The translations under genes were made by a program, and so were the position numbers. The notes below the pieces were generated by a model. The model saw only the letters and a program-made list of their open reading frames with translations, was not told the origin of the DNA and did no database searches. DNA of 64,000 bases from Kribbella soli (GTDB lineage: Bacteria; Actinomycetota; Actinomycetes; Propionibacteriales; Kribbellaceae), in contig NZ_SJJZ01000001.1 in assembly GCF_004331345.1 (NCBI RefSeq), forward strand, positions 992,001 through 1,056,000, written 5' to 3'. Shown here one piece after another: positions 11,314 to 16,036 of this stretch (position 1 is the stretch's first letter; every line of letters begins with the position of its first letter).

Positions 11314-12258
11314 CTAGAACGCCGTTCCGGCCTTTGCGATGTGCAACGTGACGGCTACCGGATCGAGTCGCGGCTTCGCCAGCGCCATCAGCTCCTTGGC
11401 GCCCTCGACCGACTCGTCCCGGATCCACTGCACCGGCGCCGACAGCCCGAACCGCTCGACCGCGCTGGTCGCGTCGAGGAAGTCCCGCGACTCGGGCACC
11501 GACCAGGTCCGTTCGCGCTCCCAGGTGATCGCGTCCGCGGCCCGTTCGGAACGCTGCCACGAGCCGTCGTACTCGTTGCCGTGGACCAGCTGCCCGTCCG
11601 GTCGCAGTACGGCGACCCGGTCCACCCAGTCGCCCTCGTCGATCATCTCGGCGGCCTGCAGTACGCCGGCGTACCCGGCGTCGTGGCGGCGTTGCGTGGC
11701 CAGCCGGCCGAAGCCGTAGGTCTCCAGCGCGCGGATGTGCCGCTGCAGTACGCCGAGGCGGCTGACGGCCTCGTGCACCGCGAGGATCGCGACCTCCACC
11801 TGGTAGCCGGCCGCCTTGAACGCGCGGGCCGACGTCGCGAAGGCCTCCGGGTCGACCAGTTCGGTCTCGATGACGACGTCGTACCGCTGCTGGACGACCA
11901 GTTCCTCGGCGCGGGCCAGCCAACGGAGGCCGTCGGTCTCGACGTACCGGTCGGAGGTCGTCGGAGCGTCAGTGATGGGTTCGTTCAGGCGCGGGTGGTA
12001 CGCCTCGAGGGCGGTCGCGCTGAGGACCACGGGACTGTCCAGCATGGCCTTGACCAGTGCGGTGATCGCGGCCTTGCCGTCGCCGGCCTGGCCGCCGACG
12101 AAGACGACCGTCGGGTGCTCCTGCGGTGTGCCGGCGATCCGGTCGGGGACGATCCGCTCACGGAAGATCCGCTCGTTGTCCGCGTCGCTCAGCCGGAACC
12201 GGTCCTGCGCGTCGATCATCCTGCTCATCGGATCCGTCGTCCTCGCCGAGCTACCCAT
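11314..12258 (-). CDS. Zeta-toxin-fold protein with degenerate kinase site
   Basis: 314 residues similar to zeta toxins, UDP-GlcNAc kinases of toxin-antitoxin systems. The fold signature is clear: [13 protein letters not shown] at residues 51-63, AYHPRLNEP near 88, and VVIETEL. However, the Walker A Ser/Thr is Ala (A63). The catalytic Asp and nearby Arg of the GDxxR.xHP motif read T82 and E85. The EGT.R motif reads ETELV. The protein may be an inactive or re-purposed kinase. The ATG start lies inside the end of the upstream gene, an 8-base overlap like toxin-antitoxin pairs; ATG codons at residues 11 and 14 are alternatives. Confidence 0.75.
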
Positions 12259-12814: not shown

Positions 12815-13806
12815 AGCGTCTTCTGGAGTTCCTTCACCGGCATCTTCAGCTCCGCGAGCAGGTCGAGGTCGGCGGTCGCCGGGCGGCCCAGGGTGGTCAG
12901 GTAGTTGCCGACGATCACCGCGTTGATCCCGCCGAGCAGGCCCTCGCGGGTACCCAGGTCGCCGAGGGTCAGCTCGCGACCGCCGGCGTACCGCAGGACC
13001 GTCCGCGGCATCGCGAGCCGGAACGCGGCGATGGTGCGTAGCGCGTCCTTGCCGTCCATGATCTCCAGATCGCCGAACGGCGTCCCCGGCCGCGGGTTGA
13101 GGAAGTTCAGCGGGACCTCGTGCGGGTCGAGCTCGGCGAGCTGCGCGGCGAGCTCGGCGCGCTGCTCGAGCGACTCGCCCATCCCGACCAGACCGCCGCA
13201 GCACAGCTCCATCCCGGAGTCGCGCACCATCAGGCAGGTCTCCCAGCGCTCCTCGAAGGAGTGCGTGGTGACGACGTCACCGAAGTACGAGCGGGCCGAC
13301 TCGAGGTTGTGGTTGTAGCGGTGCACGCCCCACGACTTCAGCTCGTCGACCTGGGCCTGCGTGAGCATGCCGAGCGAGCAGGCGATGTTGATGTCCACCT
13401 CGGCGTTGATCGCGTCGATGCCGGCCTTCACCTGCGACATCAGCCGCTCGTCCGGACCGCGCACCGCGGCGACGATGCAGAACTCGGTGGCGCCGGTCTT
13501 CGCGGTCTCCTTGGCGGCCTCGACGAGTTCGGGGATGTTCAGCCAGACCGCGCGCACCGGCGAGGTGAACTGGCCGGACTGGGAGCAGAAGTGGCAGTCC
13601 TCGGGGCAGCCGCCGGTCTTCAGCGAGATGATCCCCTCGACCTCGACCTCCTCACCGCACCACTTCACCCGGACGTCGTGGGCGAGCGCGAGCAGTTCCG
13701 GCAGCCGCTCGTCGGGCACGGTGAGAACCTCGACCAATTGCTCCTGGCTCAGCCCGGTGCCCTGCTCCAGAACCTGCTCACGTGCCACGTCCAGGATGTC
13801 GTTCAT
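12811..13806 (-). CDS. bioB: Biotin synthase
   Basis: Radical SAM enzyme that inserts sulfur into dethiobiotin. 331 residues. The cluster motif CPEDCHFC binds the [4Fe-4S] cluster; other family motifs are [16 protein letters not shown] and [10 protein letters not shown]. The start ATG follows a GCAGGAGAA ribosome site. It heads a two-gene unit with bsaP, separate from bioAFD, from which it is divided by the zeta-like pair. I found no clear operator palindrome of the BioQ or BirA type upstream. Confidence 0.96.
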
Positions 13807-13929
13807 CGTTCTCCTGCCTCACATCTCAACGGTCGGCCTCACAGTAGGTCAGGTCGGTACGTCGGGGCTGCGGCGGGCGTCACGTGGAACACATCGGGCC
13901 GTTGTGACTCAGCGCCACTCTCCGCACTC

Positions 13930-14300
13930 CCCGGGAAAAGATTTCTGGATTTTCTCCGGAACCTCGTAACCCCCCGTAGATGGGCTCGTTGATGTGTGCA
14001 GAGGCGGTTACCGCAAGGAAGACCGCCACCCGGTTACCAGGAGCTACAAATGCTGATCATTACGATCAGCACGCAGAGTGGTCACAAGGCCCGAAGCCCC
14101 CGGAAATCGGATGTAAGGTAGTAACCAAGAGCTCGGGTCGCCAGCTATGGCTGGTGACCCGATCCCAAAGCGCCGGGCGCCTCACCCCGGCTTGAGTGGG
14201 TCCCTCGGGAAACGATTTGGGCGGAAACGTTCCCGAGGGACCTGCTCCCTTTTCCGGACCTTTTGCGAAAAGCCTCAGCAACTTACTGCTGAGGCTTTTT
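13930..14300 (+). ncRNA. Candidate structured non-coding RNA between bioB and choD
   Basis: The 520-bp gap 13,807-14,326 has no convincing protein gene but many inverted repeats read best on the plus strand. They are: GGCGGT/ACCGCC (14,003-14,027); an 8-bp stem with loop ATTAC (14,051-14,071); a 12-bp stem with a TATG tetraloop (14,134-14,161); CCGGG/CCCGG (14,173-14,190); a 13-bp perfect stem extended by 2 bp (14,199-14,242); and a terminator with TTTTT. A distant pairing of CCGGGAAAAG (13,931) with CTTTTCCGG (14,249) could close the molecule. It would be 300-370 nt. I recognise no tmRNA, RNase P, SRP or riboswitch core. A 6S- or Ms1-like RNA is possible by size but unproven. Confidence 0.45.
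14268..14300. terminator. Intrinsic terminator, probably bidirectional
   Basis: AGCCTCAGCA and TGCTGAGGCT form a perfect 10-bp stem around a 6-nt loop, extended by three A-T pairs and followed on the plus strand by TTTTT. On the minus strand the run is TTTT, just after the choD stop. It could end both the choD transcript and a plus-strand RNA from the gap. Confidence 0.85.
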
Positions 14301-14326
14301 CATTTGCTTAATTTCTCGCTGTTCTG

Positions 14327-16036
14327 TTACGAATCCGTCACAGCCTGCTTAGGGATGATCGGGAGCCGAAGAGCACCGGGCGCATCCGTCGGGACGACCG
14401 GGTGTTCGGGCTTCACCGGCTGGATCCGCTTGTACTCGGCACCGGCCGCCGGGCGCGGGTCGGCGGCACCCTTGTTCGGCCAGAACGAGAGCGCCCGCTC
14501 GGCCTGGGCGGTGATCGTCAGGGACGGGTTGACGCCGAGGTTCGCGGAGATGGTCGAGCCGTCGACGATGTGCAGGCCGTCGTACCCGTAGACGCGGTGG
14601 TACGGATCCACGACCCCCGACGAAGGTGAGTCGCCGATCGCGCAGCCGCCGATGAAGTGCGCGGTCATCGGCACGTTGAACGGCTCCCCGATCGTGCCGC
14701 CCGGCGTACCGTTCATCAGCTTCGCCATCCGCCGGACCACCTGGTTCGCGACCGGGATCCAGGACGGGTTCGGGGCGCCGTGCCCCTGCTTCGACGTGAG
14801 CTTCCACCGGCCCAGCCGGTCGCGCTTGCCGAACGTCGTGATCGAGTTGTCCGCGGTCTGCATCACCAGCGCGATCACGGTCCGCTCGGACCAGTGCTTC
14901 AGGTCGTACAGCTTCCGGATGTTCTTCCGCTGGACGCCGAGCTCGCGCACCCACGTCCGCCAGCGCGGCTTGTCCCCGTCGCCGTCGGTCAGCACGGTCT
15001 GCAGCAGCGACATCACGTTGCTGCCCTTCCCGTACCGCACCGGCTCGATGTGCGTGATGTCGTCGGGATGGAACGACGACGTGATCGCGACCCCGCGGCT
15101 GTAGTCGACGTCGGTGTCGCGGGAGATCGCGCCGAGCAGCGACTCCGAGTTCGTCCGGGTCAGCACGCCGAGCCGGTTCGACAGCCGCGGCAGCTTGCCC
15201 TCGTCGCGCAGGCGGTGCAGCAACTTCGCCGTACCGAGAGCCGACGCGGCGAACACCACCTGTGCCGCGGTGAACCGGCGCGTGGACTTCTTGTTCGACG
15301 TACGCCGGGTGTCGATCGCGTACCCGCCGCCTGTCTCCTCAGCGAGCGGCTCGACGGAGGTGACCGTGGTCAGCGAGTAGACCTCCGCGCCGGCCTTCTC
15401 GGCCAGGTAGAGGTAGTTCTTCGTCAGCGTGTTCTTCGCGTTGTGCCGGCAGCCCGTCATGCACTCGCCGCAGTCGATACATCCGGTACGGCGGGGGCCC
15501 GCGCCGCCGAAGTACGGGTCGTCGACCTCGACACCCGGCTCACCGAAGAAGACACCGACCGGTGTCGGGTGGAACGTCTCCCCCACGCCCATGTCCTCGG
15601 CGACCTGCTTCATCACCTTGTCGGCCGGCGTGAACCCCGGGTACGTCGTGACGCCGAGCATCCGCTTCGCCTGGTCGTAGTACGGCGCCAGCTCGGACTG
15701 CCAGTCGGTGATGTGCGCCCACGCGCGATCGGTGTAGAACGCGGGCAGCGGTTCGTACAGCGTGTTCGCGTAGACCAGGCTGCCGCCGCCGACCCCGGCG
15801 CCGGACAGGATGATCACGTCGCGCAGCGCGCTGATCCGCTGGATGCCGTACATCCCGAGCTTCGGCGCGAACAGGAACCGCTTGGTGTCCCACGAGTTCT
15901 TCGCGAACGCCGCGTCGTCGAACCGCGCACCGGCCTCCAGTACGGCGACCCGGTAGCCCTTCTCGGTCAGCCGCAAAGCACTCACGGACCCACCGAAACC
16001 GGACCCGACGATGACGACGTCGTAGTCGAAGCTCAC
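14327..16036 (-). CDS. choD: ChoD-type GMC oxidoreductase
   Basis: 569-residue FAD-dependent glucose-methanol-choline oxidoreductase of the ChoD/cholesterol oxidase type. The FAD site is VVIVGSGFGGSVSALRL near the N-terminus; GAGVGGGSLVYANTLY and the C-terminal TAHFIGGCAIGD and ISANLGVNPSLTI blocks match mycobacterial ChoD. A cysteine-rich stretch TGCIDCGECMTGCRHNAK is also conserved in that subgroup and resembles a metal or cluster site. The GTG start overlaps the aldehyde dehydrogenase stop as GTGA. In Mycobacterium choD sits next to guaB3; here guaB3 is 5 kb away on the same strand. Steroid oxidation is not demonstrated for this subgroup, so the substrate is uncertain. Confidence 0.88.
   Translation of the reverse strand: MSFDYDVVIVGSGFGGSVSALRLTEKGYRVAVLEAGARFDDAAFAKNSWDTKRFLFAPKLGMYGIQRISALRDVIILSGAGVGGGSLVYANTLYEPLPAFYTDRAWAHITDWQSELAPYYDQAKRMLGVTTYPGFTPADKVMKQVAEDMGVGETFHPTPVGVFFGEPGVEVDDPYFGGAGPRRTGCIDCGECMTGCRHNAKNTLTKNYLYLAEKAGAEVYSLTTVTSVEPLAEETGGGYAIDTRRTSNKKSTRRFTAAQVVFAASALGTAKLLHRLRDEGKLPRLSNRLGVLTRTNSESLLGAISRDTDVDYSRGVAITSSFHPDDITHIEPVRYGKGSNVMSLLQTVLTDGDGDKPRWRTWVRELGVQRKNIRKLYDLKHWSERTVIALVMQTADNSITTFGKRDRLGRWKLTSKQGHGAPNPSWIPVANQVVRRMAKLMNGTPGGTIGEPFNVPMTAHFIGGCAIGDSPSSGVVDPYHRVYGYDGLHIVDGSTISANLGVNPSLTITAQAERALSFWPNKGAADPRPAAGAEYKRIQPVKPEHPVVPTDAPGALRLPIIPKQAVTDS

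Follow-up and report, generated by a model that had tools for sequence, protein, structure and literature searches.

A predicted structured RNA gene with a sigma-BldN-type promoter is conserved throughout Kribbella

The small RNAs MicA and RybB of Escherichia coli depend on Hfq and are much shorter than the RNA considered here, which has a length of about 300 nt and several fixed hairpins. Like the Kribbella RNA, MicA and RybB are encoded by small RNA genes with a promoter of the ECF-sigma type, and they were described as adding, from a strong promoter, a repressing arm to the RpoE regulon (PMC8103513). Their targets are mRNAs of outer-membrane proteins, whereas the Kribbella RNA has a promoter of the type read by an aerial-growth sigma factor. 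Sigma-BldN, an aerial-growth ECF sigma factor, recognises CGTAACN16CGTTGA (PMC2375139), and the targets described for it are genes of hydrophobic-sheath proteins (chaplin, rodlin), bldM and rsbN (PMC2375139, PMC4255298). The rsbN gene of Streptomyces venezuelae is read from a BldN-dependent promoter of its own, and convincing BldN matches were described as limited to morphologically complex genera (PMC4255298). The Kribbella RNA shares the promoter consensus of the Streptomyces sigma-BldN regulon (PMC2375139, PMC4255298) and, as with Streptomyces BldN and rsbN, a BldN-like sigma gene lies in K. soli next to a putatively RsbN-like gene, the two being separated by a similar promoter. The Streptomyces targets named in these sources are protein genes, whereas the two exact sites of the Kribbella genome both precede conserved, putatively non-coding RNAs. 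A further point of comparison is given by the actinobacterial Ms1/scr3559, likewise a structured intergenic RNA of similar length (PMC9130861, PMC8539372); Ms1 is defined by its HAD-IB hydrolase gene neighbour and Kribbella is named among the genera that have it (PMC9130861).

The DNA that we analysed, hereafter the window, is a stretch of 64,000 nucleotides of Kribbella soli (contig NZ_SJJZ01000001.1, positions 992,001 to 1,056,000, forward strand). A gene-free gap with inverted repeats and a terminator was found where an earlier note on this DNA had placed it. The gap is flanked by two minus-strand genes, bioB on the left (NCBIfam BioB, with a score above the family cut-off) and a GMC oxidoreductase gene on the right, for which the top NCBIfam family is cholesterol oxidase, with a score below the cut-off of that family; beyond the latter lie genes for succinic semialdehyde dehydrogenase and then guaB3 and guaB2. 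Of the 38 loci fetched from Kribbella genomes, 36 have bioB to the left of the gap and 37 have the oxidase gene to its right, and since seven of these loci extend only about 500 bases per side, the misses may be edge effects. Near the biotin genes, the window also encodes on its minus strand (11314–12258) a protein with a Zeta-toxin domain (Pfam PF06414). The features assigned to the gap are:

13965–13992, plus strand: promoter matching the sigma-BldN consensus, with -35 element CGTAAC (13965–13970), 16-nt spacer and -10 element CGTTGA (13987–13992)
13999–14301, plus strand: predicted transcript, its start placed from the position of the -10 element and its 3' end at about 14301
14003–14027, plus strand: hairpin 1
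14133–14162, plus strand: hairpin 2, of 13 bp
14172–14191, plus strand: hairpin 3, with loop CGCCUCAC
14194–14247, plus strand: hairpin 4, a long stem
about 14266–14301, plus strand: intrinsic terminator, placed at 14267–14300 by a consensus scan

The promoter, which the earlier note did not include, is the main clue to function and is identical to the published sigma-BldN consensus, CGTAAC-N16-CGTTGA. It is kept in all 38 Kribbella genomes (CGTAAC in 35, CGTGAC in 3), and the spacers of these 38 promoters comprise 22 distinct sequences with a length that is always 16. No other site with at least 11 of the 12 positions matching was found on either strand of the window, and a search of 13700–14500 for a sigma-70-type promoter found none. 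The whole K. soli genome (8.8 Mb) contains two exact sites and none of the reversed pattern; for the CGTRAC form we counted 163 sites over the 38 genomes, versus 41 for the reversed pattern. Sites of the type CGTGAC-N16-CGTTGA, such as those at L173:1501–1528 and L172:1501–1528 (both minus strand), recur across the genus, where they are found before a rodZ gene (12 other loci positive by tblastn) and also before a small, unassigned protein that matches no Pfam family (3 other loci).

Conservation along the gap, expressed as the average fraction of 37 genomes that carry the base of the window, rises from 0.54 at 13940–13959 to 0.89 at 13960–13979, dips to 0.59 at 14080–14099, amounts to 0.99–1.00 over 14160–14239 and drops after 14259, with 0.46 at 14260–14279 and 0.73 over the terminator. 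The RNA had earlier been proposed to start near 13930, which is not borne out, as conservation begins abruptly at 13960 and the promoter follows at 13965–13992. The proposed pairing of CCGGGAAAAG (13931) with 14249 is unlikely to matter, since CCGGGAAAAG precedes the promoter and falls within neither the predicted transcript nor the conserved block. At the other end, a terminator scan of 801 bases returned two terminator-like sites, for a mean of 0.8 in shuffled sequences. For the downstream hairpins picked by script at the 38 loci, the 8 nt on the 3' side contain a mean of 4.6 T and the 8 nt on the 5' side a mean of 1.4 A, and these hairpins comprise 26 distinct stems. A downstream terminator is not evident in two of the 38 loci (L024 and L037), and in two further loci (L026 and L034), where the script chose another hairpin, it was seen by eye. 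The locus has its own promoter, a terminator in nearly all loci and no conserved frame, as expected of a trans-acting sRNA gene; the sequence gives good support to the putative RNA gene and its sigma-BldN-type promoter.

The gap folds with an energy well below that of shuffled sequences (z -7.55 for 13925–14302, plus strand; z -9.22 for 13999–14302, the predicted transcript). In a structural alignment of 37 of the 38 Kribbella genomes (A2), standard pairs occupy 99.6% of the 1850 cells of the four hairpins. In hairpin 1, 97.6% of the cells are paired and two pairs show changes on both sides; hairpin 2 is paired in 100% of its cells, with eight pairs that never vary, four that vary on one side and one that varies on both. 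The six pairs of hairpin 3 are all invariant in 37/37 sequences, which makes a covariation test impossible there. Hairpin 4 is again paired in 100% of its cells, with both-side changes in three pairs, and its apical sequence as well as the UCCCUUU on the 3' side of the stem are invariant in 37/37; because UCCCUUU comes after hairpin 4 in every sequence, an alternative 3' end near 14256 is possible if hairpin 4 terminates, above all in L024 and L037. It is also possible that a pseudoknot, CUCA (14181–14184) with UGAG (14193–14196), competes with hairpin 4. Taken over all four hairpins, changes on both sides occur at 6 of the 50 pairs (31 cells). The covariation score is 0.106, versus 0.070 in shuffled alignments and 0.009–0.029 in slid versions, and further pair types number 27 for a shuffle mean of 25.0, a value reached by 23 of 500 shuffles. 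Compensatory change in the four hairpins is modest and constitutes support rather than proof, because 29 of the 50 pairs are invariant and the shuffle test is inflated by relatedness. An unbiased pairwise covariation scan was dominated by shared ancestry and gaps, and no new helix was accepted from it.

Comparison with relatives, which the earlier note had named as a check, upholds four stems, with modest covariation, but not the two-state folds proposed there. CGGTTACC is indeed present at 14005 and 14031, and GTAACC at 14121, but the alternative folds that these would allow are not conserved: all six GGTTAC–GTAACC pairs are kept in 15 of 37 sequences for the first copy and in 12 of 37 for the second, and all pairs of an 8-bp hairpin at 14051–14071 are kept in only 8 of 37, counts that are perhaps somewhat low because the alignment is gappy around these pairings and this hairpin.

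Hairpin 3 and the apical part of hairpin 4 do not vary, loops included, in any of the 37 sequences, an invariance that seems to exceed what base pairing with an mRNA usually demands. This would suit a protein-bound structural or scaffold RNA, also under BldN-type control, in which the invariant hairpins 3 and 4 form the site of a dedicated protein. No partner is suggested by bioB and the cholesterol-oxidase-like gene, the sole neighbours checked for conservation, which lie on the other strand, and we regard a scaffold as unlikely, though deserving of consideration.

BLASTN located the region in 37/37 Kribbella genomes, but in none of 21 genomes from elsewhere in the order. A covariance model (R1), built from 37 sequences for the 3' part of the RNA, found the RNA in 38/38 Kribbella genomes, as a single copy in that of K. 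soli. Outside the genus, with stricter filters for the large genome sets that could miss diverged relatives, R1 gave weak matches in 2 of the 207 genomes searched from the rest of the order and one weak match class-wide among 393 other genomes, a set that evidently holds no further Kribbella. The matches in G163 and G295 were rejected, as what aligned were hairpins without the conserved loops; that in G217 has an E value of 0.031 in the order-wide search. An exact 21-base pattern of the RNA was found in 21 records of a GTDB-based collection; 20 of these bear the name Kribbella in their title and the remaining one Streptomyces sp. SID13031, the latter apparently being G036, which was grouped with the genus of the window in the genome search. 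The RNA thus appears convincing only in Kribbella, with no convincing match elsewhere in the order and class sets searched. Rfam, which the earlier note had suggested consulting, gave no match at the gathering threshold in the window (release 15), and the best sub-threshold match in the gap reached 22.6 bits of the 80 required. Phage and plasmid collections gave no match by blastn, and IMG/VR no exact match to the core pattern of the RNA. Judged by titles and the beginnings of abstracts, the Ms1 paper is the only one among the papers listed for small or non-coding RNAs of Kribbella to concern an RNA of this genus, and those listed for BldN and sRNAs show no BldN-driven sRNA. From its sequence, the gap is predicted to hold a conserved non-coding RNA gene that had not been catalogued before and that all Kribbella genomes searched carry, and the central proposal of the earlier note, an undescribed structured plus-strand RNA with a terminator, stands on its conserved hairpins, its plus-strand pairing and the absence of an Rfam match.

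A 6S- or Ms1-like RNA, binding RNA polymerase, had also been offered as an option, and both the length near 300 nt and the report of Ms1 in Kribbella (PMC9130861) would agree with it. The neighbours, bioB and the GMC oxidoreductase gene, do not include a HAD-IB hydrolase gene, and the best HAD-IB match of the genome lies elsewhere, at G000:C2:2782546, where a separate candidate for the Kribbella Ms1 can be placed:

L047:2592–2875: candidate Kribbella Ms1 RNA, in the spacer between the HAD-IB gene and a gene read as Fic by eye

This spacer has a conservation of its own, with matches in 24 of 25 Kribbella genomes and in 8 of 14 genomes from elsewhere in the order, and R1 finds nothing in it; at the ssd locus no HAD-IB gene is evident alongside. 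6S RNA and Ms1 fold as a rod with a central single-stranded bubble, whereas the conserved fold of the gap is a row of four separate hairpins, and no Rfam 6S model matches at E values up to 10. The RNA of the gap thus differs from Ms1/scr3559 in locus, neighbours and fold, on which grounds we rejected an identity with Ms1 or 6S as very improbable.

The strand is not decided by folding energy alone, since the minus strand of the gap also folds well (z -6.66), and on that strand the RNA region sits between the oxidase gene and bioB, as would a leader or riboswitch of bioB. Such a leader, or one of a downstream plus-strand gene, is nevertheless hardly credible, as 1843 of the 1850 pair cells are standard when read as plus and 1643 when read as minus (a comparison that favours plus somewhat, the structure having been taken from the plus-strand consensus), the terminator faces plus, and the next downstream gene is convergent. 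The plus-strand orientation given in the earlier note is supported by this count; every cell of hairpins 2 and 4 pairs as plus, while read as minus these hairpins lose 62 and 109 cells, respectively. A small protein is just as improbable: although the window has an open frame at 13981–14195, and some other loci have a related frame that stays open across much of this span, the distances from the -10 element to CCCTTT take ten values (239–292) and fall into all three remainders modulo 3 (16, 12 and 10 of the 38 loci), so that no frame runs through, the longest open frame of the 38 loci is constant neither in frame nor in content, and the 3' half is near-invariant at every base and not just at first and second codon positions; on the spread of lengths and the unstable longest frame, coding was rejected.

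We looked in the K. soli genome for a sigma factor that could read the promoter. Of its 96 loci with sigma-70 region 2, L150 most resembles the compared stretches of PDB chain 6dxo_A (94 identical of 143 aligned residues), and L158 comes second. We take 6dxo to be the S. venezuelae RsbN–sigma-BldN complex, and presumably RsbN carries DUF5667. A structure of RsbN–sigma-BldN is described, without PDB code, in PMC8103513. In an NCBIfam scan that covered L150 and L158 of the 96 loci, the best family for L150 is BldN (TIGR02952, E 1.1e-53), with 181.7 bits for a cut-off of 206.45, and because of this score under the cut-off we term it BldN-like. The BldN-like sigma gene is followed, within L150:1342–3199, by a gene whose DUF5667 product contains a hydrophobic stretch, and CGTAAC-N17-CGTT lies between the two genes; when compared with PDB sequences, the DUF5667 protein gave no significant match (best E 0.68). 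The genome thus seems to encode a BldN-like sigma factor beside an RsbN-like protein, and a second BldN-like sigma factor, L158, or other ECFs could also act as readers of the site.

The second exact BldN-type site of the genome (G000:C2:1966322–1966349, minus strand) faces another conserved non-coding stretch:

G000:C2:1966061–1966351 (L112 from about 1528 down to 1240), minus strand: second undescribed conserved RNA, predicted behind the second exact site

This stretch was matched in 38/38 Kribbella genomes, in G028 over 72 bases only. The promoter has CGTAAC-N16 in 30 of 30 fetched loci; the hexamer after it is CGTTGA in 24 of them and CGTTGT in the other 6. In K. soli the second RNA ends in a strong terminator hairpin before TTCCTTTT, its fold has a z of -5.2 and Rfam gives no match to it with an E value below 0.41. 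Its alignment (A3) comprises 29 of the 30 loci, L180 being left out since the pattern missed it, and in a class-wide search the model of the second RNA found the K. soli genome alone among 394. A secreted-looking protein is encoded at L112:1738–2331 (plus strand); it contains two repeats around CHN...GIGGTVP and matches neither a Pfam nor an NCBIfam family. Homologues of this protein adjoin the second RNA in four other loci. We rejected the second site as a promoter of this protein, which is divergent from the second RNA, the site facing the conserved non-coding stretch. A companion RNA behind the second exact site makes chance less likely.

The explanation that we favour, with a probability of roughly 0.6, is a stand-alone structured regulatory RNA gene of about 260–300 nt, Kribbella-wide and read rightward from a sigma-BldN-type promoter, that is, a putative BldN-type developmental sRNA. 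What can be read directly from the DNA is the match and conservation of the promoter, the plus-strand hairpins, the terminator in nearly all loci, the lack of a conserved reading frame, and the BldN-like sigma factor with its adjacent, putatively RsbN-like gene. From these we infer the control by the BldN-like sigma factor, the timing and the mode of action. The BldN-like sigma factor would drive transcription of the RNA, which would be produced as the colony sends up aerial hyphae; the RNA may then act in trans, and its contacts with an mRNA or protein would be made by the C-rich stretches together with the invariant loops of hairpins 3 and 4. It would constitute an RNA arm of the BldN response, comparable to MicA and RybB for RpoE in E. 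coli.

A broader proposal, which we put forward tentatively and hold to be possible rather than probable, is that the aerial-growth sigma regulon of Kribbella has an RNA arm in which the two exact promoters drive two genus-specific structured RNAs, without evident mutual similarity, that would jointly form a post-transcriptional layer of aerial development, beside or in place of the surface-protein genes of Streptomyces. If true, an RNA under a BldN-type promoter would add a layer to the BldN cascade. The predicted RNA gene is defined and deletable, with a clear prediction of the timing of its expression, and it indicates that near-invariant RNAs absent from Rfam can be carried by a whole genus.
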